A stretch of 62,971 nt of DNA from Anaerolineales bacterium (GTDB lineage: Bacteria > Chloroflexota > Anaerolineae > Anaerolineales > Villigracilaceae). Below the pieces are notes generated by a model. That model was given only the letters and a program-made list of their open reading frames with translations. It was not told the origin of the DNA and ran no database searches. Position 1 is the stretch's first letter; the number at the start of each line of letters is the position of its first letter. Position numbers and translations under genes: made by a program. The stretch lies in assembly GCA_014860745.1 (NCBI GenBank), contig JACZJC010000024.1, positions 1 through 62,971 on the forward strand. Direction: 5' to 3'. Shown in pieces: positions 16,662 through 52,064 of this stretch.

Positions 16662-16662
16662 G

Positions 16663-19011: not shown

Positions 19012-19036
19012 CCTTCATTTCCGCCAAGGAAGCAAT

Positions 19037-20764: not shown

Positions 20765-20799
20765 CCTTCCAATGGAATTAGTTTTTTGAGGTGTTTATT

Positions 20800-22155
20800 G
20801 TGACCAATTCATCTTACCGCCCTCCCCTTAATGAAACTCGGCGTTACGCCATGTTCGGCGTCGCCTTTGGATTCACGTTTCCGCTCACCGCTACAATTCT
20901 GGAAGTATTATTTTCAAACCTACCGATCACCATTTTCAACATGCTTTACGTTCAGAGGATCACCCCCCTATTATGGATTGTCGATACTGCGCCGATTGTC
21001 ATCGGGTTGCTTGCAGGGTATGCCGGCCGCAAGCAGGATTTATTAAGCGAAGTCAACAGACAATTAAGCGAGCGTGAAAACGAGTTGAAAAACAATCAAG
21101 TCAATCTCGAACAATACGCAAATGATCGAACCCAGGAATTATTAATAGCCAACCAGCGCAATCAACACCGCGCGTCCCAATTCGAATCGATCGCACAAAT
21201 TTCACGTACCATCAGCTCCACACAAGCTCTCGATACCCTTCTTCCGCAAATCGCGGAAACAATTTCTGAAAATCTCGGGTTTTACCATGTCGGTATCTTC
21301 CTTTTGGATGTGAAAAAAGAATACGCTGTGCTTGTTGCCACGAACAGCCCCGGCGGGACCAGAATGCTCGAGAGGAACCATCGCCTTCCGGTCGGCGAGA
21401 CGGGACTGGTCGGGTATGTGGCCGGAAGCGGTCAACCCCGCCTCGCGCTGGATGTTGGTAAAGATGCAGTTTACTTCAACAATCCCGACCTTCCCGAAAC
21501 CCGCTCCGAGATCGCCCTCCCCCTCCGGATCGGCTCGAACATCTTCGGTGTCCTGGATGTACAAAGCACCGAGGCACAGGCCTTTTCACAGGAGGATGTC
21601 AGCATCCTTTCCACACTTGCCGAACAGGTGGGCATCGCCATCCAAAATGCCCGTTCCTACCAGGAAAGTCAGGAAGCCCTGGCGCAGGCCGAGATCATTT
21701 CAGCCCAGCTAAGCCAGCAGCAGTGGAATCATTTCCGGAACCGTCAGCCGGTTAGTGGCTATCATTTTGACGGCGTGGAAACGAAGCGGGTGGATCCCTC
21801 ATCGGGGAAACGGTCTGCCCACAGTCTTTCGATTCCTTTGACCCTGCGTGGCACTCGTATTGGAACCTTGAAACTAAACACGCCTGACCCCAACCGTAAC
21901 TGGACCGATGAAGAGATCGCAATGGCACAGGCAACCGCAGAGCGCACAACCCTCGCCATCGAAAATGCCCGTCTTCTGCAGGATGCCCAAAAACGCGCGG
22001 CCAAGGAACGTACCATTGGCGAGATTTCATCAAAGATCGGCAGCCTCGTGAATTTGGATAACATCGTTCAAACCACCCTTCAGGAACTTGGAAACACCCT
22101 GCCCGGAACCGAGATCGCCATTCAATTCACCCCACAGAAACCCGGGCAATCTTAA
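20800..22155 (+). CDS. Two-helix membrane GAF sensor, no output domain (shortest member)
   Basis: A 451-residue protein. Two GTG codons compete, at 20791 and 20800. GAGGTG at 20788-20793 makes a good ribosome-binding site for the second (6 bases), so I choose MTNSSYRPPLN. Only two membrane helices are seen (about 17-40 and 55-75), so it has no sizeable external sensor domain. A long coiled coil precedes GAF at 125-285 with TGLVGYVAGSGQPRLALD and NPDLPETRSEIALPL, then the short second GAF with the Trp segment (SQQQWNHF) and the shared tail. It may sense only cytoplasmic ligands or act as a linker between other members. Confidence 0.82.
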   Translation: MTNSSYRPPLNETRRYAMFGVAFGFTFPLTATILEVLFSNLPITIFNMLYVQRITPLLWIVDTAPIVIGLLAGYAGRKQDLLSEVNRQLSERENELKNNQVNLEQYANDRTQELLIANQRNQHRASQFESIAQISRTISSTQALDTLLPQIAETISENLGFYHVGIFLLDVKKEYAVLVATNSPGGTRMLERNHRLPVGETGLVGYVAGSGQPRLALDVGKDAVYFNNPDLPETRSEIALPLRIGSNIFGVLDVQSTEAQAFSQEDVSILSTLAEQVGIAIQNARSYQESQEALAQAEIISAQLSQQQWNHFRNRQPVSGYHFDGVETKRVDPSSGKRSAHSLSIPLTLRGTRIGTLKLNTPDPNRNWTDEEIAMAQATAERTTLAIENARLLQDAQKRAAKERTIGEISSKIGSLVNLDNIVQTTLQELGNTLPGTEIAIQFTPQKPGQS

Positions 22156-22172
22156 AGGCTCAGGAGAACGAT

Positions 22173-23938: not shown

Positions 23939-26461
23939 ATGAATCAACCCAAACTCAAACTCCCCTCGATCAGCCGCTGGCTTCTGGCTATCCCCCTAAG
24001 CCTGCGTGGAAAATTGATTGTGGGAAATATGTTGATTACATTGCTGGCCATCCTCGGCATGGGCTATTATGTATACTTCCGCGCCCAGGAATCCAACGAT
24101 TATCTCACCACCCAGTTGGAACAAAGTGTATCCCAGAGCGCAGATGAGCAATTGGCGGCGGTGGCGAATGAGCAGTCGGCAACGCTCAATGATTTCTTTT
24201 CATCAAAAAGTTATGAGATTTCACTGATCGGCGCGAACCTGAATAATTTATTATCCGGGGAATCCCGGTTGGGCAATGGTGTTTATTGGGATTCCGCCCA
24301 ATCCTTATCGCTCCTCCCCAATGGAAGCTGGGATAATTCCAACGAAGAGCCGTCCTCCATATTTATCCCGGCGGGTCCGCAGGAATTGACCCCGGCCATG
24401 GTCGCCGTATTAAATACGATCAAATTAACCGAATCCTCGGTCCCCCCCCTCCTTGAAAAGAATCCGGAGATCATCGCGATTTATTTTGGCGGTACGTTCC
24501 GCGAAACGATCTATTATCCAAACATCGACCTTGCCAATATCGTGCCGCCGGACTTTGATGTAACGCAGAGGCCCTGGTATGTCGCATCCACACCGCGGAA
24601 CAACCCAGAGGGCAGTGTCGTCTGGTCGGAGCCTTACCAGGATGCAGCTCTGAACGGTCTCGTCGTTACGGCAAGTATTCCTGTCTTTGACTCATATCGG
24701 AGATTTCGCGGCGTTGCCGCCATGGATATTCAGCTCAACCAGATCACCAGCATCGTTTCCAATATCCGCCTGGGCGACACAGGCTATGCCTTTTTGGTCG
24801 ATCGTGATAACCGTCTGATCGCTTTTCCCCAGGCTGGTTATGATGATTTCGGAATCTCCCCAGAGAGTCTTCCACTCGGCGAGATCGTCACCCAGCAAGA
24901 ACTGCCCAGCCTGCCTACCTCGTTCTTCGAGACCCTATCCAAAATTTCAGCAGGCGAAAGTGGATTCACAAAAATCAAGATCAACGACACGACCCGCTAT
25001 ATCATTTACCGCCCCTTGCCGGAGGTCGGTTACGGGCTTGCAATTCTGGTTCCAGAGGTCGAACTTCAGAAAGATGCCATTATCGCCAATGAGCAAATAA
25101 ACCGGCAGACCCGCAACGCAATTTTGGTCAGCTTATTTTTGATCCTTGGCATTTTGTTCACGGCCTCGCTTGCCTCCCTTGTCATGGGAAACGCAGTCAC
25201 TGCGCCTTTAATCTCATTAACAAAGACCGCCAGAGCCATCGCAGGGGGAGACCTGGATGCGCGGGCTGAGATTCATAACCAGGACGAGATCGGTATCCTT
25301 GGCCAGTCGCTGAATATGATGGCTGCTGAATTGCAGAAGTCCTTTGGCTCGCTCGAGCAGGGAGTCGCTGATCGAACCAGGGAACTCGAGATTGCACGCA
25401 CAAACAGCGAGCGCCGCGCGAGCGACCTTCAAGCGATCAGTGAAATATCAAAAGTAATCGCAGGCGAACAAAAATTAGATACCCTGCTTCCATTAATTAC
25501 GCGGGTGGTAAGCGACCGTTTTGGCTTCTATCATATTGGAATCTTTCTGATTGATGAGGCGAATCAATATGCGGTTCTTCTTGCGTCTAACAGCGAAGGC
25601 GGACAGGCAATGCTACACCGCGGACACATGTTGGAGGTCGGTGGAGGCGGAATCGTCGGATACGTCGCCAAGTTTAGCGCGCCTCGCATCGCTCTCGACG
25701 TCGGGCTGGATGCTGTTTTCTTCAACAACCCCGACCTCCCCGAAACCCGCTCTGAAATGGCGGTACCTTTGATCGTCCGCAATAAGATCGTTGGCGTACT
25801 GGACCTGCAAAGCACAAAGGCCGGCGCATTCACGGACAACGAGGTCAACACCATGAGCATCCTTGCCGACCAGATCGCCATCGCCATTGAAAATGCCCGC
25901 CTCTTCCAGCAGACTCAACAAGCCCTGATCGAAGCAGAGACGTTATACCGCCAGAATATCAAGGAAGGCTGGTCGAAGTTCAGCCGCGAAGAAACATCCA
26001 TCGGCTATTATCAAACTCTCAAAGGCGGCGGCAAATTGAACGCTCCCATCGACTCGGAAGAAATTCGCCAGGCAATGAACAGCGGCGAAGCGCAAATCTT
26101 TAACAACCCGCAAGGCGCGCAGGAACCATCCATCGTCGTTCCCATTAAATTACGCGGACAGGTCATTGGCGCATTGAATGTGAAATCCCCCGCCTCCGGA
26201 CGGCATTGGTCTGCCGACGAGGTCAACCTAGTAGAAGCCATCTCAGAACGTTTATCTTTTTCCTTGGAAAATGCGCGCCTGATCCAGGAATCTCAACGTC
26301 AGGTGATCAAGGAGCAGACGATCAGCGAAGTAACCGGCAAGATCGGCGCATCGATCAACTTGAAGAACGTCCTTCAAACCGCGGTCGAGGAATTGGCACG
26401 CGCCATGCCCGGCTCGGAAGTGATCATCGAGTTTGACCAGAAGAACGGGAATCCGGATTAA
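23939..26461 (+). CDS. dCACHE-HAMP-GAF membrane sensor, no output domain
   Basis: An 840-residue protein. The first membrane helix is at about 26-46 and the second at 393-417. The region between is a clear double CACHE domain: TQRPWYVASTPRNNPEGSV, SEPYQDAALNGLVVTASIPV, then GVAAMDIQLNQITSIV and GDTGYAFLVDRDNRLIAFP, the pattern of chemoreceptors that bind amino acids and similar small molecules. HAMP is at 418-470, GAF at 500-660 (NPDLPETRSEMAVPL), then a short second GAF with the Trp segment (KEGWSKFS) and the shared tail. Amino-acid sensing would fit the threonine synthase fusion downstream, but this is speculation. Confidence 0.87.
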   Translation: MNQPKLKLPSISRWLLAIPLSLRGKLIVGNMLITLLAILGMGYYVYFRAQESNDYLTTQLEQSVSQSADEQLAAVANEQSATLNDFFSSKSYEISLIGANLNNLLSGESRLGNGVYWDSAQSLSLLPNGSWDNSNEEPSSIFIPAGPQELTPAMVAVLNTIKLTESSVPPLLEKNPEIIAIYFGGTFRETIYYPNIDLANIVPPDFDVTQRPWYVASTPRNNPEGSVVWSEPYQDAALNGLVVTASIPVFDSYRRFRGVAAMDIQLNQITSIVSNIRLGDTGYAFLVDRDNRLIAFPQAGYDDFGISPESLPLGEIVTQQELPSLPTSFFETLSKISAGESGFTKIKINDTTRYIIYRPLPEVGYGLAILVPEVELQKDAIIANEQINRQTRNAILVSLFLILGILFTASLASLVMGNAVTAPLISLTKTARAIAGGDLDARAEIHNQDEIGILGQSLNMMAAELQKSFGSLEQGVADRTRELEIARTNSERRASDLQAISEISKVIAGEQKLDTLLPLITRVVSDRFGFYHIGIFLIDEANQYAVLLASNSEGGQAMLHRGHMLEVGGGGIVGYVAKFSAPRIALDVGLDAVFFNNPDLPETRSEMAVPLIVRNKIVGVLDLQSTKAGAFTDNEVNTMSILADQIAIAIENARLFQQTQQALIEAETLYRQNIKEGWSKFSREETSIGYYQTLKGGGKLNAPIDSEEIRQAMNSGEAQIFNNPQGAQEPSIVVPIKLRGQVIGALNVKSPASGRHWSADEVNLVEAISERLSFSLENARLIQESQRQVIKEQTISEVTGKIGASINLKNVLQTAVEELARAMPGSEVIIEFDQKNGNPD

Positions 26462-26535: not shown

Positions 26536-28530
26536 ATGGCTTTTGATTCCGACCTTCAAGGTTCACAATCCTCCCAGACCAGCCTGCAGGAAAAATTTCT
26601 TGCGAATATCAGCGTTTCCTGGAAACTTAATTTATTGATTCTAGTGATGGTCATCGGTATTCTTGGAATTTTCATCATTGCCCTGCAGGGCATAAACACC
26701 ATCGAAAAATCAGAGGAACTCAATTTTACGGCCATGAGCGCACCCATCGCCGCCTTGAATCAGGCGGATATTGCCTTAAGTGAAATTCAGGCGGATTTGC
26801 ATGGGTTGGAAAACTCGAATCTGACCCCCGAAGAAATCGAAAACCGATTGGCTCAAATCGCCGGTGCAGAGGACCGTATCGCTTCAACCCTTCAAAAATA
26901 TGAAACGGACTGGTTCCAGCCTTTGGATTTAACTTTTCAGGCAGGGATGCCCAAAAATAGAATGGAAGAAATCCAAAATTCCCTGGTTGAACTGGCCAAC
27001 GAAGAGAAATTGTTGTTCGGCCAAATTAAGCAAAGTTACAACTTATACAATGAGAAATCCGCCGTCTTCTATCAAAAAATCAAGGCGGGCAGTTTTGATT
27101 CGGAGGCGGAAACCGAGATCAACGAACTTCTTGTTCTTATGCAAACCACCTCGAAAAAGTTGATTTACATCCACAGTGAAAGGCAGCTGCTGGCCAATGA
27201 AGTATTCCGTTCAACCTATCTCAATTTGAATATCAGGATGATTTTCGCACTCGTATTGGCGATCGGCGCGGGTCTGATATTAACAAATATGGTGGCACGC
27301 TCCATCAGCTCCAGGCTGATCATCCTGGGCAACAACGCCCTGGCTTTACAGGACAATCTTCTCGATCTCCGCTCGAATGTCACCATGGCGGGCAGGGATG
27401 AGATCGCCCTTGTTTCGAGGTCGTTCGATGAAATGTCCGGGCGCCTGAGAGAAATATTTGCAGACCTTGAAAACAAGGTCAACGAACGTACGGAAAGACT
27501 TGCCGCCGCCACCGCTGAAAGTTCCAAGCGGGCTCAGCAATTTGAGGCGATTACAATCGTAGCGCGCGCTATCAGTGCCACCCAGGACTTGCAGGAATTG
27601 CTCCCCAGAATCTCAAATGTGATCAGCGAACAATTCGGCTTTTATCATGTCGGTATTTTCCTGAACGACCCTTCCAACCAAATTGCAACCCTTGTGGCAG
27701 CAAACAGCGAAGGCGGACAGAAAATGCTCCAGCGCAGCCACCAGTTGAGGATTGGCGAACAAGGAATCGTGGGGTACGTCACCCAGACCGGCAATTCGCG
27801 CATCGCGCTGGACGTGGGAGCGGATGCGAATTACTTCGACAACCCTGAACTTCCCAACACCCATTCTGAAATGGCACTGCCCCTCAAGGCGGGCAGCCAG
27901 ATCATCGGCGCGTTGGATATCCAGAGCACGGAAGCGGGGGCATTTACAGACGATGATTTCGAAGCCCTTTCTGCCCTTGCGGATCAGGTCAGCCTTGCGA
28001 TTCAAAATGCCCGCCTGTTCGACCAGCTAAAAAAGACGTTGTCCGAATCTGAATCCATCCAGCGCCAATATATCCGCGAAACATGGAGCCGCCTGCCCAA
28101 AGAGGAAAAATTGACCGGTTATCGATATTCTGTAACGGGCGCCATCCCGCTGGATGAAAAGTCAAAAATTTCTGTTAATGAGCATCTCAGGGAAAAGCGC
28201 AAGGTCAGCGTACCGATCACCCTCCGTGGAGAGACCATCGGCACCCTTTCCGTTCATGTTCAAAAATCACAACACGTCAGCGCAGACCACATCGACCTTG
28301 TTCGAGCCGTGGCCGACCGCGTGGCTCTTTCTGCTGAAAACGCGCGCCTCTTCGAAGAGACCTCCTCCCGCGCCGAGAGGGAGCGCCTTGTATCAGATAT
28401 CACGACCAAGATTCGCACCACCAATGACCCGCAGGAAATGCTCCTCACCGCTGTGGATGAATTGCGACGGGCATTGGGCGTCAGCCATATCGAAATCATC
28501 CCGCAAAAAGTAACTCCCCCGGACAATTAG
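26536..28530 (+). CDS. Four-helix-bundle, HAMP and GAF membrane sensor, no output domain
   Basis: A 664-residue protein. Membrane helices lie at about 31-55 and 234-256; the roughly 175 residues between are entirely helical and charged (for example EEIENRLAQIAGAEDRIAST), like the 4HB sensor domain of chemoreceptors. HAMP is at about 257-315, then a coiled coil, GAF at 345-500 (NPELPNTHSEMALPL), a short second GAF with the Trp segment (IRETWSRLPKEEK) and the shared tail. An AAAGGAAAA ribosome-binding site precedes the ATG. The 74-base gap before it is the longest in the operon and shows no clear promoter. Confidence 0.85.
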   Translation: MAFDSDLQGSQSSQTSLQEKFLANISVSWKLNLLILVMVIGILGIFIIALQGINTIEKSEELNFTAMSAPIAALNQADIALSEIQADLHGLENSNLTPEEIENRLAQIAGAEDRIASTLQKYETDWFQPLDLTFQAGMPKNRMEEIQNSLVELANEEKLLFGQIKQSYNLYNEKSAVFYQKIKAGSFDSEAETEINELLVLMQTTSKKLIYIHSERQLLANEVFRSTYLNLNIRMIFALVLAIGAGLILTNMVARSISSRLIILGNNALALQDNLLDLRSNVTMAGRDEIALVSRSFDEMSGRLREIFADLENKVNERTERLAAATAESSKRAQQFEAITIVARAISATQDLQELLPRISNVISEQFGFYHVGIFLNDPSNQIATLVAANSEGGQKMLQRSHQLRIGEQGIVGYVTQTGNSRIALDVGADANYFDNPELPNTHSEMALPLKAGSQIIGALDIQSTEAGAFTDDDFEALSALADQVSLAIQNARLFDQLKKTLSESESIQRQYIRETWSRLPKEEKLTGYRYSVTGAIPLDEKSKISVNEHLREKRKVSVPITLRGETIGTLSVHVQKSQHVSADHIDLVRAVADRVALSAENARLFEETSSRAERERLVSDITTKIRTTNDPQEMLLTAVDELRRALGVSHIEIIPQKVTPPDN

Positions 28531-28548: not shown

Positions 28549-29337
28549 ATGTTGAGAACCATAGCCATATCGAATGAAAAAGGCGGCGTTGCAAAAACCA
28601 CCACCACCCTTTCCCTGGGCGCCGCCCTTGTTGAATTGGGAAACCGCGTTTTACTGATCGACCTGGACGCCCAGGCCAACCTTACCCTCGCCCTCGGCCT
28701 TGAACCAGGCGAGACAGACAAGACATCCAGCAACATCATGCTGGACAATGTCCCGATTCTTGAGGTTTGCAAAAAGACGGATATCGAGAAATTGGATGTG
28801 ATTCCATCGAGCTCCCGCATTGAAATTTCCGAGCAATTCCTGCCGGTCCGCACGAATTACACCACCATCCTTCAACGCGCCATTCGGAATGCCACCAACC
28901 TGCACTATGATTACATTATTCTGGATTGCCCGCCGGCTTTGGGCGCCATCACCAAGAATGCGCTCGCCGCAGCGGAACTGCTGCTCATCCCAACCCAGGC
29001 GGAATATTTCTCGGCATATGCCTTGAGAAACATGATGACCCTCATCCGCAACATCCGCGAGGCGGATAACCCCAGCCTGGCCTATCGCATTCTCGTCACC
29101 ATGATGGATCGCAGAAACCGCACCCACCGCAACATCCACGAGCAGCTTCGCGCAACCTTCGGCGAAGGCGTCTTCAACACCGTCATCGAGATGGATACCA
29201 AATTACGCGAAAGTCCCATTGCCGGCCTGCCGATCACACATTACAAACCCGGCGCACGCGGTTCCACCCAATACCGTGTCCTCGCCCAGGAGTTAATGGA
29301 ATATGCCAAAGAAACCGAAAATAGACAAGCGGCTTAA
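28549..29337 (+). CDS. Orphan ParA/Soj-type ATPase
   Basis: A 262-residue ParA-family protein. The deviant Walker A motif EKGGVAKTTT has the signature Lys11 and P-loop Lys16, Walker A' is VLLIDLDAQAN and Walker B is YIILDCPPA. Plasmid-type N-terminal DNA-binding domain is absent, so it is of the chromosomal or orphan class. No ParB or parS is next to it. Orphan ParA proteins in chemotaxis operons (ParC of Vibrio, PpfA of Rhodobacter) position signalling clusters on nucleoid or pole; placement between the GAF sensors and their kinase suggests an analogous role here. The coding end overlaps the kinase gene by 35 bases. Confidence 0.9.
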   Translation: MLRTIAISNEKGGVAKTTTTLSLGAALVELGNRVLLIDLDAQANLTLALGLEPGETDKTSSNIMLDNVPILEVCKKTDIEKLDVIPSSSRIEISEQFLPVRTNYTTILQRAIRNATNLHYDYIILDCPPALGAITKNALAAAELLLIPTQAEYFSAYALRNMMTLIRNIREADNPSLAYRILVTMMDRRNRTHRNIHEQLRATFGEGVFNTVIEMDTKLRESPIAGLPITHYKPGARGSTQYRVLAQELMEYAKETENRQAA

Positions 29338-32300
29338 TAAGCTCTTCGAGGACATTCAGCCGGAGAAGAATGACTCGAAGCCTGGGAACAGGCCGACGGT
29401 CAGCGATGAGGCGCCTCCTCCTCCGCTGAAACCTGCCCCGCAAAAAACTGAATCAGCCGCCCCCCCGATTCCGACCCGCAAGCGCCAAACGTCTGCCCTC
29501 GTTCTACCGGAGATTGTCACTCGCCCGCTGGTTGGATTGGATTCCTCGGCATATTCCGTAAATATCCAAACTGGTGATCAGGAATGGGTCACGATGCGCC
29601 TGCTGGATGAAAACCGCGAGCGTCAATGGTCCACCGAAGAACAACTGCTCATCAAACAGGTGACCGACCAGTTGTCTCTGGCTCTTGAAAACGCCCGGCT
29701 CTTCCAGGAAACGCAAAAGCGTGCGCAGGAACTCGCTGTCATCAATGAGGTGGTATCCTCGGTCGCAAGCACGCTGGATATTAACAATACCCTGCAGAAG
29801 ATCGCGGACAATCTGCTTATTTTGCTTTCCGCAAGCCGGGTAGGCATCACGCTGATGAATAACGATAGAACGGCATTGATACTTACAGCCGATGCAACAC
29901 CGACCTTCGGTATACCCGTCAACCTCGGCCTGATCATTCCAATCGAGGGTAATCTGGCTACAGAAGAAGTCATCCGCACCCGCAAGCCGCTCTTTATCCA
30001 GGATGTGGCAAACAACCCGCTGGCTGGACCCATTCGTGATGTGCTGGTCCAACGGGGCACAAAGAACCTTTTGATCATGCCCCTTCTCACAGAGGAAGAA
30101 GTCATCGGCACGATCGGTGTGGATTTTGACAGCCTCGACCGTTTAATTACCCAGGATGAACTGCGCCTGCTGGATAACATCGTCTACCAAACCGCAACGG
30201 CCATTCAGAAGAATCAACTCTTCGAACGTATCGGAAAATCGGAAGCGGACTTGCGCGCCTTGTTCCACTCAATGGAAGATGTGGTGCTGGTGATGAGCAG
30301 GGATGGACGGTATGAACGCATCGCTCCGACTAATCCTTCAAAACTAATCAAGCCCCCGGATGAACTGCTTGGAAAATACGTCCATGAAGTGCTACCAAAG
30401 GAAACCGCCGACCGGTTCATGACGGCCATTCAAGATACCCTCGATAAAACCGAAAGAATTCAGATCGAATACGAACTGCCCGTTGGCAATGATAAATACT
30501 GGTTCCTTGCCAACCTGACCAAGCTGGATGAAGACCGCGTGTTCTGGGTGGCCCGCGATATTACCGACCGCAAGATGGCGGAAGAGGCGATCCGCCGCAG
30601 GAACGAATATCTCGCCGTGTCGGCAGAGATCGGCAAGCTGGTTACCTCCACGCTCGATCTGAACTCGATCTTTGCCCGCACCGTAAACCTGGTCAACGAA
30701 CGCTTCAATCACTACTATGCCGCGATCTACATTGTGGAGGAGACGGGATTCAACGCCGCCCTGCGGGAAGCGACCGGCGCAGCCGGTGCTCAAATGAAGA
30801 GGCAAAATCACTCATATCAGATCAATACCAAGACCACGGTGGGCAAGGTGGCTTCAGAGGGAAAAGCGCTTGTCGTAAATAATGTTAAGACGAATCCGCT
30901 TCACGATAAAAATCCGCTTCTTCCCAATACCAGGGCTGAGGCCGCCATTCCCCTCAAGATCGGCAATCGTATCATCGGTGTGATCGATATTCAAGCGGAA
31001 AGCGAAGATGCCTTCACCGACGATGAAGTAGGCGTACTACAAACCCTCGCCGACCAGATCGCCGTGGCGATCGATAACGCGCGCTCCTTCGAGCTTTCAC
31101 AGCAGGCCGTGATGGAAATGCGTGAGATCGACCGTTTGAAGAGTCAATTCCTCGCCAATATGAGCCATGAGCTGCGCACGCCTCTCAACTCGATTATTGG
31201 TTTTTCCCGCGTCATCCTGAAGGGCATCGACGGCCCGGTGACGGAATTGCAGCAGCAGGACCTGACCGCCATTTATAACTCCGGCCAGCACCTGCTCGGC
31301 CTTATCAACGATATCCTCGACCTTGCCAAGATCGAAGCCGGCAAGATGGAACTGGCATTCGACGAAGTCAATATTGCTGATGTCGCCAACAGCGTGCTTT
31401 CCACCATGAGCGGGCTGGTGAAAGACCGTCCGATTCAGTTGAAGCGCATTATCGAACCGAATCTGCCGACAGTCCGCGCGGACGCGATTCGCGTCCGCCA
31501 AGTGATGATCAATCTCCTTTCCAATGCAGCCAAATTTACCGAGGATGGGGATATCATCGTCGAGGTAGGCATGCGGCCCGGAACAGCCGGCCGCAACGAG
31601 ATTCGGGTAAGCGTCACGGATACCGGCCCTGGGATCTCCGAACAGGATCAGGAAAAGTTATTCCAGCCATTCTCACAGGTGGACGACTCACCCACCCGTA
31701 AGACCGGCGGCACAGGTTTGGGTTTGTCCATCTGCCAGCAATTAATCAATATGCACGGCGGGCGGATTTGGGTGGAAAGCAAGGTTGGCAAGGGCAGCAC
31801 ATTCTATTTCACTCTGCCCCTCTTCCGCAAGGAAAAGGACGGGGAAATTCTCCCTTTGGGCAACAAGATCATCCTCTCCATAGATGATGATCCGCAGGTC
31901 ATTGGTTTATATGAACGCTACCTGCAGCCGCAAGGCTACCAGGTCATTCCGTTGACCGACCCCTCGCGGGCAGTGGAGCGGGTTAAACAATTGAAACCGT
32001 TTGCGGTTACATTGGATATCATGATGCCGGGCATTGACGGATGGCAGGTTTTGGATACCTTGAAAGGCAATCCCGATACCCGCAACATTCCCGTGATCGT
32101 CTGCAGTATTGTCGAAGACCTTGAAAAAGGTTTCAACCTCGGTGCCACCGATTACCTCGTGAAACCCATCCTTGAAGATGACCTTGTCAACGCGCTCGAC
32201 CGCCTGAACTCCGACGGCTCGATCCGCGATGTGCTGGTGATCGACGACAACCCGGACGATCTGCGTTTGATCAGCAAAATATTAAATGACGACGGCAGAT

Positions 32301-32611
32301 ATAAGCCCATCCTCGCCGAAGGCGGGCGCAGCGGATGGAATATTATTTCAACCGGAAACCCTCCCCACGCCATCATTCTTGACTTGTTCATGCCGGAGCT
32401 TAACGGGTTCCAGATCCTGGAGAACTTACAAGCGGATAAAAGACTGCGCGATATTCCCACTCTCGTCATCAGTGGCGTGGAACTGACACCGGAACAAAAA
32501 CAGCAGCTTCACGAGTTTGGCCGGAACGTGCTCACAAAAGGGATGTTCAGCGAAAAGGAACTGCTGACCTCCATCCAGCGCTCGCTCGAAAGAATCCAAC
32601 CGAACAAGTAA
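29303..32611 (+). CDS. Soluble hybrid histidine kinase: partial GAF, GAF, PAS, GAF, HisKA, HATPase, two receivers
   Basis: A 1102-residue kinase without membrane segments, the only kinase of the operon. A basic, proline-rich linker (1-80) leads into what looks like only the second half of a GAF domain (about 85-135, with WSTEEQLLIKQVTDQLSLAL). Next come a full GAF (140-305), PAS (310-425), GAF (435-590, NPLLPNTRAEAAIPL), HisKA with phospho-acceptor His622 (FLANMSHELRTPLNSIIGF), HATPase (about 720-840, DTGPGIS and GGTGLGLSICQQL), and two receivers with Asp905 and Asp1027. The GAF type matches the eleven upstream sensors, so mixed GAF pairing is plausible. Possible phosphate recipients are the two small receivers and the threonine synthase receiver. 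Confidence 0.92.
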   Translation: MPKKPKIDKRLNKLFEDIQPEKNDSKPGNRPTVSDEAPPPPLKPAPQKTESAAPPIPTRKRQTSALVLPEIVTRPLVGLDSSAYSVNIQTGDQEWVTMRLLDENRERQWSTEEQLLIKQVTDQLSLALENARLFQETQKRAQELAVINEVVSSVASTLDINNTLQKIADNLLILLSASRVGITLMNNDRTALILTADATPTFGIPVNLGLIIPIEGNLATEEVIRTRKPLFIQDVANNPLAGPIRDVLVQRGTKNLLIMPLLTEEEVIGTIGVDFDSLDRLITQDELRLLDNIVYQTATAIQKNQLFERIGKSEADLRALFHSMEDVVLVMSRDGRYERIAPTNPSKLIKPPDELLGKYVHEVLPKETADRFMTAIQDTLDKTERIQIEYELPVGNDKYWFLANLTKLDEDRVFWVARDITDRKMAEEAIRRRNEYLAVSAEIGKLVTSTLDLNSIFARTVNLVNERFNHYYAAIYIVEETGFNAALREATGAAGAQMKRQNHSYQINTKTTVGKVASEGKALVVNNVKTNPLHDKNPLLPNTRAEAAIPLKIGNRIIGVIDIQAESEDAFTDDEVGVLQTLADQIAVAIDNARSFELSQQAVMEMREIDRLKSQFLANMSHELRTPLNSIIGFSRVILKGIDGPVTELQQQDLTAIYNSGQHLLGLINDILDLAKIEAGKMELAFDEVNIADVANSVLSTMSGLVKDRPIQLKRIIEPNLPTVRADAIRVRQVMINLLSNAAKFTEDGDIIVEVGMRPGTAGRNEIRVSVTDTGPGISEQDQEKLFQPFSQVDDSPTRKTGGTGLGLSICQQLINMHGGRIWVESKVGKGSTFYFTLPLFRKEKDGEILPLGNKIILSIDDDPQVIGLYERYLQPQGYQVIPLTDPSRAVERVKQLKPFAVTLDIMMPGIDGWQVLDTLKGNPDTRNIPVIVCSIVEDLEKGFNLGATDYLVKPILEDDLVNALDRLNSDGSIRDVLVIDDNPDDLRLISKILNDDGRYKPILAEGGRSGWNIISTGNPPHAIILDLFMPELNGFQILENLQADKRLRDIPTLVISGVELTPEQKQQLHEFGRNVLTKGMFSEKELLTSIQRSLERIQPNK

Positions 32612-32631: not shown

Positions 32632-34284
32632 GTGTCTTTCATTATCAAGTGTCTGGACTGCGGGCATAACGCGCCTTATTACCCAACATCATCCACCTGT
32701 CCTAAATGCGGAAGTCAATGGCGGGAAGCGGAATATGACTACGAACGGATCGGTAAGATCCTGCCGCCCCTGCTTGCATCCAGGCCGGCTGACTTGTGGC
32801 GATTTCGAGAGTTATTACCCGTCCGAAACCCCAATGTAAGCCTGTCTCTCGGGGAAGGCAGCACGCCGTTGATCCGCGCGGGAAACCTTGGCATGATGCT
32901 TGGCTGCCCTAACATATTCATTAAAGATGAAAGGCAGGGGCCGACTTCCTCCTTTAAGGACCGGCAGGCGGCAGTCACCATCGCGGCGTTGAAGGAGGCA
33001 GGTATCACCGAAATGGTGGCCGCATCCACAGGCAATGTCGCCATCTCATACTCCGCCTATGCCTCCCGCGCAGGGATGAAATTATGGGCTTTCGTCACCA
33101 GCCTTGTGCCTGCAGTAAAAATGCGCGAAATCGCGCTCTATGGAAGCCAAGTGATCAAGATCACCGGGTCATACGATCAATGCAAACAGGTCGCGTCTGA
33201 ATTCGCTCGTCAGCGCCGCCTCTACCAGGATATGGGTGCGCGGACCATCACATCCATCGAAGCCATGAAAACGATCGCCTTCGAGATCGCCGAGCAGTTG
33301 ACTGCCGTGCAGGGTCCCGGTGAAACCTCCCCCTGGCGTACACCCGATTGGTATGTGCAGGCGATCAGCGGAGGGATGGGACCGCTGGGCGTATATAAAG
33401 GCTTCCGGGAAATGAAGCAAATGGGATGGGTGGACCGCATCCCCGCCTTTGCCCCGATTCAAGCAGAAGGCTGCGCACCAATGGTCAATAGCTGGAAAAA
33501 GGGACTGGATAAAGTTGAGCCGGTAAAGTCGCCTAAAACCCGCATTGAGACCCTCGCCACCGGCGACCCCGGACGCTCCTACGAATTCCTGCGTGAATAT
33601 GTCAACAGCACGAACGGCGCATTCGAAAGTGTCAGCGATGAGGATGCCTTCCGCGCCATGCATGTGCTGGCAAAAATGGAAGGCATCTCTGCCGAACCAG
33701 CCGCGGCGGCGGCATTCGCCGGGCTATTCAAACTGATTCGCGCCGGGGTGATCAAACCCAGCGACACGGTTGTGGTCAACTGCACCGGCCACACCATGCC
33801 GGCCGAAGCGGGCATCCTTGGCGACAACTGGTCGCGCGATGTAAAGTTCCCGACCCTGGATGAGACTCCGCAGGAAGGTCTGCTCTCCGCCCTTACCCAG
33901 GTGGCTCCGGAGCGCTTCCCCAAGATCGTGATCGTCGAAGATACCACCGAGGCGCGTCGTCTTATTCGCCGCATTTTACAATCGCAGGGAAACTTCACAA
34001 TCCTGGAGGCCGTCAATGGGCGCGAAGGCCTCGAATTGATCCAGCGCGAACGGCCCGACCTCATCATCCTTGACTTGATGATGCCGGAAATGGACGGCTT
34101 TGCCGTCATCGAAGCCTTGCGGGCGAATCCAGAAACAGCCACCATACCGGTGATCGTTGCAACCGCAAAGGAATTGACCCCGGATGAGAAGAACCGCCTC
34201 GGCGGCCAGATCCAATCCCTGATGCAAAAGGGCGATTTTCTCAACGATGAATTCCTTGAAGAAGTAAAGTCCCTGATCAAATAA
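32632..34284 (+). CDS. Threonine synthase-like PLP enzyme fused to a C-terminal receiver domain
   Basis: A 550-residue fusion. Residues 1-35 hold a CX2C...CX2C zinc ribbon (CLDCGHNAP, CPKCGSQW). Residues 45-410 are a fold-type II PLP enzyme like threonine synthase, with the Schiff-base lysine at 109 (TSSFKDRQA), a substrate loop AASTGNVAIS and a phosphate-binding QAISGGMGPLG. After a 20-residue linker, residues 428-550 form a CheY-like receiver: acidic IVEDTT, phospho-acceptor Asp481 (LIILDLMMPEMDGF), switch Thr in IVATAKE and Lys in MQKGDF. The GTG start has an AGGAG site 10 bases upstream. The reading frame is continuous, so this is a true fusion. Known threonine synthases lack receivers; control of the enzyme by phosphorylation is an inference. 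Confidence 0.9.
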   Translation: MSFIIKCLDCGHNAPYYPTSSTCPKCGSQWREAEYDYERIGKILPPLLASRPADLWRFRELLPVRNPNVSLSLGEGSTPLIRAGNLGMMLGCPNIFIKDERQGPTSSFKDRQAAVTIAALKEAGITEMVAASTGNVAISYSAYASRAGMKLWAFVTSLVPAVKMREIALYGSQVIKITGSYDQCKQVASEFARQRRLYQDMGARTITSIEAMKTIAFEIAEQLTAVQGPGETSPWRTPDWYVQAISGGMGPLGVYKGFREMKQMGWVDRIPAFAPIQAEGCAPMVNSWKKGLDKVEPVKSPKTRIETLATGDPGRSYEFLREYVNSTNGAFESVSDEDAFRAMHVLAKMEGISAEPAAAAAFAGLFKLIRAGVIKPSDTVVVNCTGHTMPAEAGILGDNWSRDVKFPTLDETPQEGLLSALTQVAPERFPKIVIVEDTTEARRLIRRILQSQGNFTILEAVNGREGLELIQRERPDLIILDLMMPEMDGFAVIEALRANPETATIPVIVATAKELTPDEKNRLGGQIQSLMQKGDFLNDEFLEEVKSLIK

Positions 34285-34323: not shown

Positions 34324-35271
34324 TTGCCCAAAAAACAACCCGCCGGGATCTTAGCGGCATTTAGTTCCGCCGTGTTCCTGGGGCTGGCGCCTGTTTTCGG
34401 AAAACTCGCCATCCTCGAGGGCTTCACGCCGCTGGCGGTGGTCGCCTTGCGTACCGGCTTCGCCGCGGCGATCCTGCTGCTGGTTGTTTCACTTTTCTAT
34501 CGCCAATATTTGTATATTTTCCCGGTCGGCCTGGTGGGCTGTATGTTGGCAGGTACCATTAATGGCCTGGGGTCGCTCCTTTACTATCTCGCGCTTGAAA
34601 AACTGGATGCCAGCCTGGGGCAGTTGTTATATTCGCTCTATCCCTTCTTTGTGGCGCTCTGGCTCATCCTCGATCATCAACCCCCCAGCCGATTAACATT
34701 TTTCCGAATTGGGCTGGCGATGATCGCCGTCCTCCTGCTAACAAGCGTACCCGGGCGTTCCATCGACGTTCCCGGAGTCCTCATGATGATCGGCGCGGCC
34801 ATTCTTTACGCCATGCACCTGCCCATCAACCAGCGCGTTCTGTATGAAGTGCCCGCCCCCACCGTGGCGCTGTATACCCTACTTTCAATGAGCGCAGTTG
34901 TCATTCCCGCCTATCTTTTGTTCGACAGGGCCTGGCCGGTTTCAAATATTCCCTGGCTGCCCGTTGCAGGCCTGACCTTTGTCACCGTCTTTTCGCGGAT
35001 TGCCCTCTTTTTAGGGGTTAAGAAAATTGGTGGAATGCAAACCGCCTTATTAGGACTCGCCGAATTATTGATTGCCATATTCTTCAGCCACATTTGGCTG
35101 GGCGAGAACCTTTCCCCGCTCCAATGGCTGGGCGCGCTCGGACTCACGATCAGCCTGATTCTGGTAATGTATGAGCATCCTGCCACGCCGACGCATAGCG
35201 GGAAAACCGGCTGGCTATCATGGATCCGCGCGCCAGGCTTGCCGAAGGATATCTTTGGTCCCTATGAATGA
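34324..35271 (+). CDS. EamA/DMT-family transporter
   Basis: A 315-residue protein with about ten membrane helices in two EamA repeats of five, the architecture of the drug/metabolite transporter superfamily. Members export or import metabolites such as amino acids (RhtA exports threonine and homoserine). The start is a TTG at 34324; there is no nearer ATG. It lies 39 bases after the threonine synthase-receiver gene on the same strand and just before a terminator, so it is probably the last gene of the operon. A threonine link is suggested only by position. Confidence 0.85.
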   Translation: MPKKQPAGILAAFSSAVFLGLAPVFGKLAILEGFTPLAVVALRTGFAAAILLLVVSLFYRQYLYIFPVGLVGCMLAGTINGLGSLLYYLALEKLDASLGQLLYSLYPFFVALWLILDHQPPSRLTFFRIGLAMIAVLLLTSVPGRSIDVPGVLMMIGAAILYAMHLPINQRVLYEVPAPTVALYTLLSMSAVVIPAYLLFDRAWPVSNIPWLPVAGLTFVTVFSRIALFLGVKKIGGMQTALLGLAELLIAIFFSHIWLGENLSPLQWLGALGLTISLILVMYEHPATPTHSGKTGWLSWIRAPGLPKDIFGPYE

Positions 35272-35307: not shown

Positions 35308-36036
35308 TTACTTATCCCCTTCATATAGATAACCGGTCCCGCGCACACTGATGACTTGCTCGGAGAGGGAGGGGAATTGTTCCAGTTTATGGCGCAGGCG
35401 GCTGACGAGCGGGCGGAGTATCTCCGGCGCCTCGCGCTGGGTGGTATCGTACCCCTGCACCAATAAAACCAACTCGCGATGGGAAAACACCTTCCCTTTA
35501 TTTTCCATCAGGATTCGCAGCAGCCGACCTTCGGCGGGTGTGAGATGCTCGACCTTGTTTTTATAACGAATCTGGCGGCGGGAAAGGTCCACAGAGGTGC
35601 CGTCCTTCAGGTTGAAAACCTCCTGCCCGCTGTCTGCATCCAGGATTGAATTATTCAAGCGCGATTTGCTCGAACGTCGTGTAAGGCCCTTCTTTACCGT
35701 GGCCAGGATCTGCGCCGGAGAGGCGGGCTTCAAAAGATAATCATGAATCCTCAACCGCAAAGCCTGAATCGCAGTTTCCGTGGAGCCGTAGGCTGTGAGC
35801 AATATCACCTCGGTTTCGGGTGAAACCTGGTTCACCACCTGCACCACTTCGAGGCCGTCCATGCCGGGCATTTTCAAGTCCACGATCATCAGGTCCACAT
35901 TTTGGGTGCGGACATATTCGACAGCCGCCTGTCCATTCGGCGCAGAGGCCACGGTGTACCCTTCGAGTTTGAGGATGTCGGTGAGGGATTGTCTTGCGAC
36001 GGGTTCATCGTCTACAACCAGAATGTTCGACTTCAT
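35308..36036 (-). CDS. OmpR-family-like response regulator (receiver plus winged helix)
   Basis: A 242-residue protein. The receiver has VVDDEP near the N-terminus, phospho-acceptor Asp in LMIVDLKMPGMDGL, switch Thr in ILLTAYG and Lys in LLKPASP. The C-terminal part (about 150-242) is a winged helix with LTPAEGRLLRILMENKG and the wing VRGTGYLYE typical of OmpR-type DNA-binding regulators. An ATG at 36072 is possible, but the ATG at 36036 is preceded by GGAGG and shares an ATGA overlap with the stop of the upstream kinase gene. It is the transcriptional output of the kinase pair. Target genes are unknown. Confidence 0.9.
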   Translation of the reverse strand: MKSNILVVDDEPVARQSLTDILKLEGYTVASAPNGQAAVEYVRTQNVDLMIVDLKMPGMDGLEVVQVVNQVSPETEVILLTAYGSTETAIQALRLRIHDYLLKPASPAQILATVKKGLTRRSSKSRLNNSILDADSGQEVFNLKDGTSVDLSRRQIRYKNKVEHLTPAEGRLLRILMENKGKVFSHRELVLLVQGYDTTQREAPEILRPLVSRLRHKLEQFPSLSEQVISVRGTGYLYEGDK

Positions 36037-37613
36037 TGTTTTCCTCCGGCAGGTATGAATATGCGGAAACAAGCGCCCGGCCCGCGTTCGGGGAGCAGTT
36101 CCAGAACGCCGCCATGCGCGATAATTATATTGTAACTTACCGTGAGTCCCAAACCGGTCCCCCCATCCTTCGTGCTGAAGAAAGGTTCGAAAATGTTGGT
36201 CTGTTTTTCCTCAGGAATTCCCTTTCCGCTGTCTTGAAACAAGAGTTCAACTCCAGTGCTGGAGGAACGCGCGGTGATGCGTAGTTCCCCGCCTTCGGGC
36301 ATGGCGTCAGCGGCGTTGAGGATGAGGTTGATGAATACCTGCTGGATCTGGCTGCTGACCGCCATAATCGTCGTAAGGTTCGGGGGCAGGTCCACCTTGA
36401 CATTGATTCTTGCTTCGTTGAGCTGCTTCGACATTAAAGTGATAATGTATTGCAGCATTTCGGCCAGGTCCACTTTTTCAAGGGAGCTGGTACCGGGCCG
36501 GTAAAAATCGAGCATGCGGCGCACGGTGAGCATCAGCCTTTCCAGCTCGGTACGGGCGAGGTCGAAATATTCCTTGCGCTTTTCCTCGGGCAGGTCCTCC
36601 CGCCCGGCCAGGTGCAGGCAGTTCTGCACAGCCTGCAAAGGGTTGTTCACTTCATGGGCGATCGATGCGCTGAGCCGTCCCGCCGCCGCCATCTTTTCGG
36701 CTTGCAGCAGAGCTTTTTGCGATTCCTCCACTTTGCGGACGTAATCCAACTGCTCGGCGTATAAACGCGCATTCTCCAAAGCGGCAATGGACTGGCGTGC
36801 CAGAATCTGGAACATCTCCAGGTCCGATTCGCGGAAAGGAGGTTCGTCCGTGGTGCGGGCGGCATACAATACCAGCCGCAGGTTCGGGCGGACGATAGGC
36901 GCGAGAATCACCGCACCAAGCCCGAGCGCGGAAAGATGCGCTTTCAGGGTTAAGTCGCCGGGCCCATTGGCATTGACCAGAATCGGCGTAGAGGATTCCG
37001 CCGCATGGGAGATCAGATCCAAATGTGTTTGGGAGGAAGTAAAGCCACGCGCCGCCAGTATGGAAAAATCTTTCGTTTCCAAATTTTGCTGATAACAACC
37101 CGCCTGCGCACATTGCATATGGCCGCAGATGGCATTGACGATAAGATCGAGCAGGGGTTCCCGGCGCGTTTCAGAAAGCAGGGCTTCGGTGACGGAGAAC
37201 AACGGACGCAGAGCCTGGGTGCGGGCGGCGTCGCGTTTGGTCTGGCTGTCTGCAAGCGCCAACTTGACGGCTTCGATCAACTCGTTTCCCTGGCTGAATG
37301 GTTTAAGCAATAACCCGTCCACTCCCTGCCGCAGGGCACGGATTGCGGTTTCGACCGTGCCATGCCCGGTCATGATCAGCACTGCGGCATCGGGCTGCAA
37401 ACGCTGGGCGTGCTGGATGACCTCGAAGCCGTCCACTTCGGGCATACGGATATCGACAAGCAGCAGGTTGATTCTGTTTTCTTTCAGGTATTCGATGGCC
37501 TTGCGTGGATCGGTCTCGGTGGCCACCTTATACCCGGCGCGGGTCAGCAATCGGCTGCACAACAGGGCAATGCCGGGTTCGTCGTCGACAACAAAGACAA
37601 AAGGATTTTCCAT
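36033..37613 (-). CDS. Receiver-GAF-histidine kinase
   Basis: A 526-residue soluble protein. An N-terminal receiver (1-120) has VVDDEP, phospho-acceptor Asp in LLLVDIRMPEVDGF and Lys in LLKPFS. A GAF domain lies at about 145-280, then HisKA with His in SIAHEVNNPLQAVQN, and HATPase with NLILNAADAMPEGGE, DSGKGIP and GGTGLGLTVSY. The N-terminal receiver suggests it is controlled by another kinase, most likely the GAF kinase encoded just upstream (11 bases away), giving a two-step relay. The stop overlaps the response regulator start by 4 bases. Confidence 0.9.
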   Translation of the reverse strand: MENPFVFVVDDEPGIALLCSRLLTRAGYKVATETDPRKAIEYLKENRINLLLVDIRMPEVDGFEVIQHAQRLQPDAAVLIMTGHGTVETAIRALRQGVDGLLLKPFSQGNELIEAVKLALADSQTKRDAARTQALRPLFSVTEALLSETRREPLLDLIVNAICGHMQCAQAGCYQQNLETKDFSILAARGFTSSQTHLDLISHAAESSTPILVNANGPGDLTLKAHLSALGLGAVILAPIVRPNLRLVLYAARTTDEPPFRESDLEMFQILARQSIAALENARLYAEQLDYVRKVEESQKALLQAEKMAAAGRLSASIAHEVNNPLQAVQNCLHLAGREDLPEEKRKEYFDLARTELERLMLTVRRMLDFYRPGTSSLEKVDLAEMLQYIITLMSKQLNEARINVKVDLPPNLTTIMAVSSQIQQVFINLILNAADAMPEGGELRITARSSSTGVELLFQDSGKGIPEEKQTNIFEPFFSTKDGGTGLGLTVSYNIIIAHGGVLELLPERGPGACFRIFIPAGGKQ

Positions 37614-37624
37614 ATTGATTCCGT

Positions 37625-40222
37625 TTACACCGGCAGCCAGACTTCGAATGTGGAGCCTTGTTCCGGCTGGCTGGAAATTTCGATGGTGCCTCCGTGGTCG
37701 GTAACGATGCCATAGGTGACCGAAAGCCCCAGTCCTGTGCCGCCGCTGTCACCTTTCGTAGTGAAGAACGGCTCGAAGATGCGCGCCTGGTCCTCTCTGG
37801 AAATACCGCTTCCGCTATCCGTTACGCTGAGCACGACCCATTTCCTGCCATCGCGTTTGGAGGGAGCGGTGCCGACCGTTAGGTCGCCGCCGTTCTTCAT
37901 GGACTGCAGGGCATTGTGGATCAAGTTCAATAACACTTGTTTCATCTGATTCGTGTCGATGGAGATCCAGGGCAGTTTTTCGGCCAGCTGAAGCGAAAGG
38001 GTTACATTGTTGGTCTGGATCAGGTGCCGTGTGAGGGCGATCACATCGTTCACCACTTCGTTGATGCCCGCGCTCGTACGCATCCGTTCGCCCTGGCGCG
38101 AGAAATCCAACAGGCGGCGTACCACCCCGCTGGCGCGGCGCGCTTCCTTCAAGACCATTTCCAATTCATTACGATGCGGGGAGTCTTCGGCAAGTTCATC
38201 CAGAACGATCTCGGAAAACCCGGTGACGGTGGTGAGCGGGTTGTTCAACTCGTGCGCGATGCCCGCGGCCATTTCACCGACAGCTGCAAGCTTGGCGGCC
38301 TGGAGCAGCCTATTTTCAGCGGACTGCTGCGCCTCCATGCGGGCGTTCAATTCGATCTCGGCGGTGCGAAGCTGCCGCACCGTCTCTTGTAATTTTTGAT
38401 ATTGATTGGCGCTGGTCACCACCGAAGCGAGGATGCCCGCCAGTGACTCCATGGCGATCAGGTCGTTATATGAAAAGGCGTTCTGCTCCCTGCTTTCCAC
38501 GTCGATGATGCCCAGGATGGTCTCGCCGTCCTTCAAGGCTACACACAACTCGGAGCGCGCCTCCCAGCCCTTGATGGGTTTATACAGGGCATCCTTTTCG
38601 GTATCGTTGACAAGGATACTCTCCCCCGTCCTAGCGACGTGCCCGGTGACCCCATCAATTCGGATGAACTCACGTCCCGCCAGCGCCGTGACGACCGTCT
38701 CGGAATGCGAGCCGCCGATTCCCTGAATGGAAAAGTGTTTCTCGTCGTCGATCAGCAGGATGGCGGCAAGCTCATATTTGAAATATTGCGCAACCAGCTC
38801 GGCAGTGATCGTAGCGACTTCGCTTTTATCGTTCAGGCCGATGACCTGCTGCACCACTTCATGGATCAAGCCCAGGCTGCGCGCGCGGCCTTCCGCCTCT
38901 TCACGCAGGCGCGTGTATTCGATCAACCCCGCCAGGTGGCTGGCGATCACCACCATTAGATGTTCATCGTACTGGCTGAAAGCTTCGGCATGCGTGTTCT
39001 CAATCACCAGCGCCCCGGTGGGCTGGCCGCGATATTTAAGCGGGATGATCAATTGCGAACGCGCCCCCTTGTTGACCTCGAGGAAGCCTTCCTTCGTCGA
39101 ATCGGCAATGCGACGGACCTTCCCCTCCTTGAGCATCGACTGCATGAGGTGTCCCATCAAAGGAACACTGATCACATTCAGTTTACCTTCGAACATGCGA
39201 TAGTCGCGCAGGATGCGCCCATCGCTGGAGCGCAGGAAGAGCGTGATCAATTCGGTGGTAAAGGCGCGCGTCAGCAGGCCGAACATGCGCCGCGCGATCT
39301 GGTCCAGGTTCTGGGCGGAGGAAACGGTCAATACGAAATCATTGAGCAGGCCGAGGCGGCGGAGATGAGCCGCCATTTCTGAAAAGGTGATCACCACATC
39401 CACCGACTGCGGCACGCGCATTGCCAGTTCGCGCAGTTGTCCGCGCTCGGTCATGGTAAGTTCTTTCTGCCGCCAAAGCGTAATTACACCGATCAAACGC
39501 TGGCCGATCACCAGGGGCAGGCAAGTCCAAACAGTAGTATTGGATTTCAACGTACCGAAGGGCAGATTTTCCCAATTGGGCTGGCCGCGGGTTACAAGCA
39601 CATCGGCCAGGGATCGGTTCACACGACGGAGGACAGGGTTCTCGTCGATGGGCAGGGACACACCCCTGGCTTTTGGTGTATTCCATTCCGCTTGAATCTC
39701 GAGCAAGTCGCCGCGCCGAATAGCCAGCCAGGCACCCTGGCACGGCACGGATTGTACGAATGCGCCCAGCACTTTTTCGAGAGCCAGCGGCAGGTCGAAA
39801 GCCAGGCCGGATTGCAAATCCGGCAGGAACGGCTGGCTCGGGGAAGTGGACCGCCCCGAGAGCAGGGATGCGGTCAGCTTCCAAATGCGCTGGGCATCTA
39901 CAGATTGGTCATCCGCCCCGATGATGATGCTCTGGGAGGTGCCGCTGATGGGAAAGGCATAGATCCGCGTTGTATTTAATTTGCTTTCTTCGGGAGTGGA
40001 CGTGTAACGGGAGTAGCCCCCGCTCAACGCACCGCACAACCATGCATCCACCACTGGGGTGGCCATGATGTTCATCAATTCGTTTTGTGCCGACTTGCCC
40101 AGCCGGTGCACGGAGCGAAGCAGCCAGGCTCCCCCCACCCGCTCAGCCAGAACCGCCCAGACCGCGCCTGAAAGCTGCGCCGCATCCTTGAGTTGAGTTT
40201 CGATGCCGTTTTCGATTTGCAT
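37625..40222 (-). CDS. Multi-GAF soluble histidine kinase
   Basis: An 865-residue protein without membrane helices. About three GAF or GAF-like domains fill residues 130-600; the most typical is the third (GRSEFIRIDGVTGHVARTGE-like region and ARSELCVALKDGETILGIID). HisKA carries His in AAGIAHELNNPLTTVTGFSE, and HATPase carries NLIHNALQSMKNGGD, DSGSGISREDQ and GGTGLGLSVTYGI. It heads a three-gene operon with a receiver kinase and a winged-helix regulator. ATTATA at 40237-40242, read on the minus strand, gives a perfect TATAAT -10 box 14 bases before the ATG, so the leader is very short. Confidence 0.9.
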   Translation of the reverse strand: MQIENGIETQLKDAAQLSGAVWAVLAERVGGAWLLRSVHRLGKSAQNELMNIMATPVVDAWLCGALSGGYSRYTSTPEESKLNTTRIYAFPISGTSQSIIIGADDQSVDAQRIWKLTASLLSGRSTSPSQPFLPDLQSGLAFDLPLALEKVLGAFVQSVPCQGAWLAIRRGDLLEIQAEWNTPKARGVSLPIDENPVLRRVNRSLADVLVTRGQPNWENLPFGTLKSNTTVWTCLPLVIGQRLIGVITLWRQKELTMTERGQLRELAMRVPQSVDVVITFSEMAAHLRRLGLLNDFVLTVSSAQNLDQIARRMFGLLTRAFTTELITLFLRSSDGRILRDYRMFEGKLNVISVPLMGHLMQSMLKEGKVRRIADSTKEGFLEVNKGARSQLIIPLKYRGQPTGALVIENTHAEAFSQYDEHLMVVIASHLAGLIEYTRLREEAEGRARSLGLIHEVVQQVIGLNDKSEVATITAELVAQYFKYELAAILLIDDEKHFSIQGIGGSHSETVVTALAGREFIRIDGVTGHVARTGESILVNDTEKDALYKPIKGWEARSELCVALKDGETILGIIDVESREQNAFSYNDLIAMESLAGILASVVTSANQYQKLQETVRQLRTAEIELNARMEAQQSAENRLLQAAKLAAVGEMAAGIAHELNNPLTTVTGFSEIVLDELAEDSPHRNELEMVLKEARRASGVVRRLLDFSRQGERMRTSAGINEVVNDVIALTRHLIQTNNVTLSLQLAEKLPWISIDTNQMKQVLLNLIHNALQSMKNGGDLTVGTAPSKRDGRKWVVLSVTDSGSGISREDQARIFEPFFTTKGDSGGTGLGLSVTYGIVTDHGGTIEISSQPEQGSTFEVWLPV

Positions 40223-52002: not shown

Positions 52003-52064
52003 TTGTGTTTGCACTTCAAACCAAAATATGATTATCTTATTTGCAGGGCTATCCCCGCTCACAT

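Follow-up and report, generated by a model that had tools for sequence, protein, structure and literature searches.

The window analysed here is a stretch of 62,971 nucleotides from an Anaerolineales bacterium (contig JACZJC010000024.1). Between positions 4525 and 35271 the large genes called all lie on the + strand, and comprise two receivers, eleven GAF genes lacking a kinase domain, a ParA/MinD-type ATPase, a histidine kinase, a fusion of a threonine-synthase-like enzyme with a receiver (TS-REC) and an EamA transporter. The features considered are as follows.

4525-5368, + strand: two stand-alone receivers heading the array (4525-4917 and 4910-5368), recognised by receiver similarity and not by Pfam
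5381-23894, + strand: nine further kinase-less GAF genes in a row, five with HAMP, MASE11 or PDC/dCache and four with GAF only
23939-26461, + strand: dCache-HAMP-GAF sensor without a kinase domain (Pfam), with the amino-acid motif of PMC11237719 at aa 206-263 (24554-24727)
26536-28530, + strand: HAMP-GAF sensor without a kinase domain (Pfam)
28549-29337, + strand: ParA/MinD-type ATPase (AAA_31, Pfam)
29303-32611, + strand: hybrid histidine kinase directly upstream of the fusion (PAS, GAF, HisKA, HATPase_c and two REC by Pfam; H-box and ATP-binding boxes by eye)
32632-34284, + strand: TS-REC fusion protein, 550 aa, GTG start (open frame, Pfam, relatives)
32650-32709, + strand: zinc-ribbon cysteines, aa 7-26, zinc binding predicted from four invariant Cys
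32845-33789, + strand: PLP-dependent (PALP) domain, aa 72-386 (PF00291; threonine synthases match the model)
32956-32958, + strand: Schiff-base Lys109
33232-33273, + strand: aa 201-214, the site of N-S/T..N-P in other proteins, replaced in the fusion (alignment)
33919-34281, + strand: receiver (REC) domain, aa 430-550 (PF00072 and conserved residues)
34072-34074, + strand: phospho-acceptor Asp481
34324-35271, + strand: EamA (DMT) transporter, TTG start, directly downstream of the fusion (Pfam)

The whole row of eleven GAF genes (5381-28530, + strand) thus contains seven members with a HAMP, MASE11 or Cache match and four with GAF only. Start positions within the run are uncertain because some neighbouring frames overlap. 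The spacing of the genes suggests that the run may be read as one transcript. Of the same-strand genes of the run that were scanned, none showed a DNA-binding domain.

The fusion is encoded by a single open frame free of internal stops and consists, from N- to C-terminus, of a zinc ribbon, a PLP domain with Lys109, a linker and a receiver with Asp481. A Pfam scan matched PALP to aa 72-386 at 218.1 bits (cut-off 35) and Response_reg to aa 432-525 at 73.1 bits (cut-off 30.2), which identifies a PALP-family protein carrying a response-regulator domain. Cysteines are present at positions 7, 10, 23 and 26, and Lys109 sits in an SFKDR loop. Conservation was assessed by aligning 52 fusion sequences, of which L050 and L147 are fragments; PMC12172450 and PMC10104139 were consulted on the residues. 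The four cysteines and the Schiff-base lysine are invariant (51/51). In the receiver, E/D436, D437 and D481 are kept in 52 of 52 sequences, and T/S511 and K533 in 51 of 51, so that the acidic pair, the phospho-acceptor Asp, the Thr/Ser and the Lys of a response regulator are all in place. The preliminary description of this DNA had read the gene as a PLP enzyme with zinc ribbon and catalytic lysine continuing in frame into a receiver with an intact Asp481, and that reading holds.

An AlphaFold model of the fusion gave a pLDDT of 78.2 and a pTM of 0.69, and therefore docking between the domains is not claimed. Residues 388-416, in the linker, and 512-550 fall below a pLDDT of 50, and the domains have no fixed contact in the model. 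An apparent second C-terminal receiver was seen in the fusions of six loci (L133, L138, L140, L142, L143 and L147), with frame starts uncertain in L142 and L143.

Other fusions of this kind, for which the preliminary description had proposed a search, are found. A match at E<=1e-100 occurs in 45 of 150 genomes of the class, and in 43 of these it extends through the receiver. In the two others, G104 and G132, it is confined to the enzyme part, and a weaker C-terminal piece was matched in G049. At the same threshold a sample of the phylum gave matches in 34 of 301 genomes, six of them belonging to one genus outside the class (6.0-6.8 Mb). Beyond the phylum, the distribution is sampled by a contig pattern scan, which returned at least 16 enzyme-bearing loci, all titled as Chloroflexota lineages among the matches listed; L054-L117 of that scan match the receiver only and were excluded. 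The hosts are mostly uncultured Chloroflexota, known here mainly from metagenome-assembled genomes. Since the fusion is found across genomes of the class and the phylum with its residues kept, it is neither a chance event nor the error of one assembly. A sequencing or assembly artefact joining two genes, which the preliminary description had raised against itself, is ruled out by the recurrence of the fusion in dozens of genomes.

Rough dN/dS values between the window protein and nine close relatives lay at 0.011-0.047 in the enzyme part (5/9 pairs could be computed) and 0.017-0.030 in the receiver part (3/9 pairs), silent change being saturated in the remaining pairs. A 73-row tree places 50 fusions in a single clade with support of 100/100 and a stem of 2.29 changes per site. 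Left out of it are the fragments L050 and L147 and all fusions of L181-L194. Long branches lead to L139_2 and to the Arabidopsis row, and the tree tool flagged a possible false joining of the fusions with the L144/L145/L152 group. No receiver-less enzyme of the fusion clade was recognised in the 150-genome class sample, with short matches taken as they stand. The class-sample matches between 1e-60 and 1e-72 are receiver-less enzymes, 33-39% identical, which were treated as lying outside the clade; twelve of them are in the tree.

Only 20 bases separate the hybrid kinase from the fusion in the window. For comparison, 68 loci were chosen from the class, contig-scan and phylum matches. A same-strand kinase gene lies immediately upstream of the fusion in 57 of these loci, which are a choice and not every match, and are not independent, as genomes may overlap and several share a genus. 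The gap has a median of 22 bases (range -5 to 280) and is within 50 bases in 41 of the 57. Gene calls were longest-frame picks, and in L125, L137 and L193 antisense frames masked the fusion, which was re-found by tblastn. Because of this adjacency and the short median gap, the earlier proposal that the fusion is the likely output of the upstream kinase is a sound inference.

The remaining eleven loci lack such a kinase gene. In L042 the kinase and its receivers are split into two genes, in L053 and L126 a REC-kinase gene lies directly downstream of the fusion, L147 is truncated where its contig stops, and the long frame upstream in L137 gave no Pfam match. A recognised kinase beside the fusion was not found in L129, L130, L133, L136, L142 and L149; a lone receiver lies downstream in L133 and L142, and a receiver protein two genes downstream in L149. 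Some of the eleven are surrounded by unrelated genes, among them those for polynucleotide phosphorylase (L129), an ion exchanger (L149), a redoxin (L136) and AMMECR1 (L126). Across the whole set, eight of the 68 loci have a REC-kinase gene as the next gene after the fusion.

Within its own genome, the receiver closest to that of the fusion is the second and last receiver of the upstream kinase, at 63.1 bits, with the next at 61.8. Where the upstream kinase has no receivers (for example in L143, L144 and L181), the fusion is the adjacent receiver. A second locus type consists of a kinase, often receiver-less, followed by the fusion and then by a lone receiver. In five of the 68 loci (L189:11365-12552, and L144, L145, L190 and L193), all of the second type, the fusion is followed, mostly after the lone receiver, by a threonine-synthase-like gene that stands alone.

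An opposite-strand DNA-binding regulator at 35308-36072, with its own REC-kinase (to 37613), adjoins the gene run, and because it is next door the upstream kinase may have other targets. The two-component genes on the - strand at 35308-40222 are REC-DNA-binding, REC-GAF-kinase and GAF-kinase; the pair of REC-DNA-binding and REC-GAF-kinase genes also follows the EamA gene in L039, L044, L118, L184 and L188.

Several other members of the run recur beside the fusion. Within the DNA fetched, a ParA gene lies upstream in 25 of the 68 loci. EamA is found within 3.5 kb downstream on the same strand in 30 and on the opposite strand in three, and was not seen in 35 within the DNA fetched. Longer upstream stretches were compared in seven genomes; elsewhere the arrays may exceed the DNA fetched. 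The plan of two receivers, n GAF genes, ParA and kinase recurs with n=12 in G027, about 11 in G358, and n=4 in both G350 and G245, the last two coming from one other family of the order. G253 has about ten GAF genes, with the receiver pair not seen in the stretch; the stretch of G111 stops inside the array; and G214 has the kinase and GAF genes, with ParA not recognised. A ParA-type ATPase in a sensory run might perhaps serve to place the sensor array.

A hint at the signal comes from the sensor at 23939-26461. Its dCache_1 domain scores 86.5 bits (cut-off 45) and carries the pattern of an amino-acid sensor (dCache_1AA), for which amino-acid binding is predicted; the amino-acid-binding dCache motif is published in PMC11237719. 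Among 5000 shuffles of the window sensor protein, three match the motif. Of the 68 loci, 13 carry it in an upstream gene, all 13 with fusions at least 74% identical to that of the window. It is in none of 553 other frames of those loci, a weak control because these frames were not chosen as Cache proteins. In the longer stretches it recurs in array sensors of G027, G111, G253 (two) and G358, and it was seen once outside an array (L211:10198-12663).

The preliminary description had named the enzyme threonine synthase, and here it fared less well. The nearest solved structures, both in sequence and in the fold predicted by AlphaFold, are threonine synthases (Z 36-43, the best at 43.4), and the cysteate synthase 9k3c is among the fold neighbours at Z 40.9. 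The window fusion lies below the cut-offs of all six threonine synthase models that it matched, and so falls outside the curated profiles; it scores 159.3 bits against 167.1 for TIGR00260 and 262.8 against 303 for NF006050. TIGR00260 is passed by eight of the 30 fusions in 24 chosen genomes. The N-S/T..N-P(.R) motif, which we take from the Thermus enzyme to be the substrate-phosphate site, is absent in 50/50 fusions, where an invariant D-x-G occupies its position, and is present in 18 of 23 other threonine-synthase-like rows. The five other rows without it comprise the Arabidopsis row (N-S-L-N-S), three stand-alone rows with S-T-F-K-E-P and one with none of these; the last four, all stand-alone, are also without N-S/T..N. 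One of the S-T-F-K-E-P rows (L152, contig C74) passes NF006050 at 576 bits without the strict motif. As only 18 of the 23 other rows carry it, the motif argument is suggestive and not more.

The genome of the window also has a separate ThrC, which scores 297.1 bits against the TIGR00260 cut-off of 167.1 and is encoded divergently from thrB on contig C13; homoserine dehydrogenase is on contig C8. A thrB/hom neighbourhood, a supporting rather than a required feature, is not seen around the fusion, thrB lying beside the other ThrC. A C13-type thrC was found at E<=1e-60 in 29 of 45 fusion-bearing class genomes. A TIGR00260 search of 24 chosen fusion-bearing genomes, made up of the 16 from the class in which the C13 type had not been found and eight others, recovered a separate ThrC-like protein in 22; in G124 (87% complete) and G096 (81% complete) the fusion was found alone, with no other ThrC-like protein in that search. 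A housekeeping ThrC as the sole role is ruled out for the window genome by the separate thrC beside thrB. Cysteate synthase (TIGR03844) was also rejected, at 112.7 bits against a cut-off of 324.9, though it is a near fold neighbour. Threonine synthesis as the reaction of the fusion is thus not supported, although these sequence comparisons are not proof against it. Since the substrate site appears changed, the substrate is probably not O-phosphohomoserine. Genes of this family would readily be annotated as threonine synthase, and such annotations may be unsafe for inferring threonine synthesis.

Based on these observations, we favour the reading that the fusion is a response regulator with a PLP-dependent enzyme as its output, gated by phosphorylation and acting on an amino-acid substrate, and we put its probability at about 0.55. 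The sensors of the gene run, one of them with the amino-acid Cache motif, would feed the upstream hybrid kinase, which would pass phosphate to Asp481. The receiver, held on a flexible linker, could then change how active or accessible the enzyme is, or its state of oligomerisation. The enzyme may be threonine-synthase-like, carrying out an elimination or replacement at an altered substrate site, and its product, or an amino acid related to it, may leave the cell through the EamA transporter. The fusion itself, its conservation, the kept residues, the gene order and the separate thrC are observed; phosphotransfer, gating, the change of substrate and export are what we infer from them. Against this reading weigh the eight fusions that pass TIGR00260, the two of 24 genomes (81 and 87% complete) without another ThrC-like protein, the 11 loci lacking an upstream kinase gene, the four stand-alone rows without N-S/T..N, the opposite-strand regulator beside the run, the 35 loci in which EamA was not seen, and a model in which the domains make no fixed contact.

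The same arrangement could be read in other ways. The PLP domain might itself be a sensor, which would bind an amino acid, perhaps carry out half a catalytic cycle, and so alter the flow of phosphate through the receiver. In MocR/GabR regulators an aminotransferase-like domain acts as a sensor in a comparable way, invariant active-site residues would also suit a ligand sensor, and the REC-kinase gene that directly follows the fusion in eight loci fits such a role, as do a kinase and sensors that already make an input array. We nevertheless regard it as unlikely, given PLP catalytic residues and a zinc ribbon conserved over a wide clade, same-strand genes scanned in which no DNA-binding domain was found, and a second locus type with the fusion as the receiver beside a plain kinase. 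A genuine threonine synthase under phospho-control, converting O-phosphohomoserine to threonine, is a doubtful reading too. The missing N-S/T..N-P motif, the scores of the window protein under all matched cut-offs and the thrC with thrB elsewhere in its genome speak against it, whereas the closest solved structures, the eight fusions that pass TIGR00260, the stand-alone threonine-synthase-like gene just downstream in five loci and the three stand-alone rows that lack the strict motif (one of them passing NF006050) speak in its favour.

It could also be argued that the receiver serves only for docking, of the enzyme to the kinase or to the sensor array, or for keeping an oligomer together, with catalysis independent of phosphorylation. 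A flexible linker with no fixed domain contact in the model would allow this, and the ParA-type ATPase suggests placement of an array; however, the conservation of the phosphorylation residues across 52 sequences goes beyond what docking needs and makes this reading highly improbable. Taking the preferred reading of a phospho-gated enzymatic output further, the run could form a loop. About a dozen GAF sensors, several of membrane type, would act through one kinase on the PLP enzyme as the main output, and its product, of a non-protein amino-acid type, would be exported by EamA and read by the dCache sensor, giving a signal between cells for which no transcription factor is needed. As a whole this scheme is distinctly unlikely, and we offer it as speculation.

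Compared with ThrC (TIGR00260; PDB 2d1f, 2zsj, 1uim, 6cgq and 2c2b), the fusion shares the PLP domain, the SFKDR lysine loop and an STGN loop, and its zinc ribbon also occurs in several stand-alone ThrC-like rows; it differs in the added C-terminal receiver, the replaced N-S/T..N-P, scores under the curated cut-offs and the presence of a separate thrC. Cysteate synthase (CapA2, PDB 9k3c) has a ThrC-like fold matched from residue 1 and a profile E-value of 1.6e-21, but has no receiver, and its profile cut-off lies well above the fusion's score. PleD and CheB are response regulators with enzymatic output. An intact REC, an enzyme and an adjoining kinase are shared with such regulators, whereas here the enzyme is N-terminal and is a PLP-dependent amino-acid enzyme. 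Control of a fold type II PLP enzyme by an extra domain or ligand would likewise be shared with plant threonine synthase and cystathionine beta-synthase (PMC9081730), where control is by S-adenosylmethionine binding and not by a phosphorylated receiver; in that text the terms 'response regulator' and 'receiver' were not found.

The preliminary description had presented the fusion as an unusual, direct metabolic output. The fusion is real and conserved, but its unusualness was overstated, as receivers attached to metabolic enzymes were known earlier, according to PMC5847659, which cites Galperin 2006 and 2010. A literature search, which covered few subscription papers and the others in part, returned no report of a REC-threonine synthase or REC-PLP fusion. 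With the class of receiver-metabolic enzyme joins already noted, the whole gene run is the more unusual part. If our reading is true, a histidine kinase would here be linked directly to amino-acid chemistry, bypassing transcription. Kinase, enzyme, candidate amino-acid sensor and candidate exporter can all be named from the order of the genes, so that receiver control of a PLP enzyme is open to testing with a single purified protein.

Elsewhere in the window, a type I restriction-modification system lies on the - strand at 46672-52197, with an hsdM-like gene at 46672-48231 and an hsdR-like gene at 48748-52197; the frame at 45435-46703 is in the position expected for hsdS and is a candidate for it.
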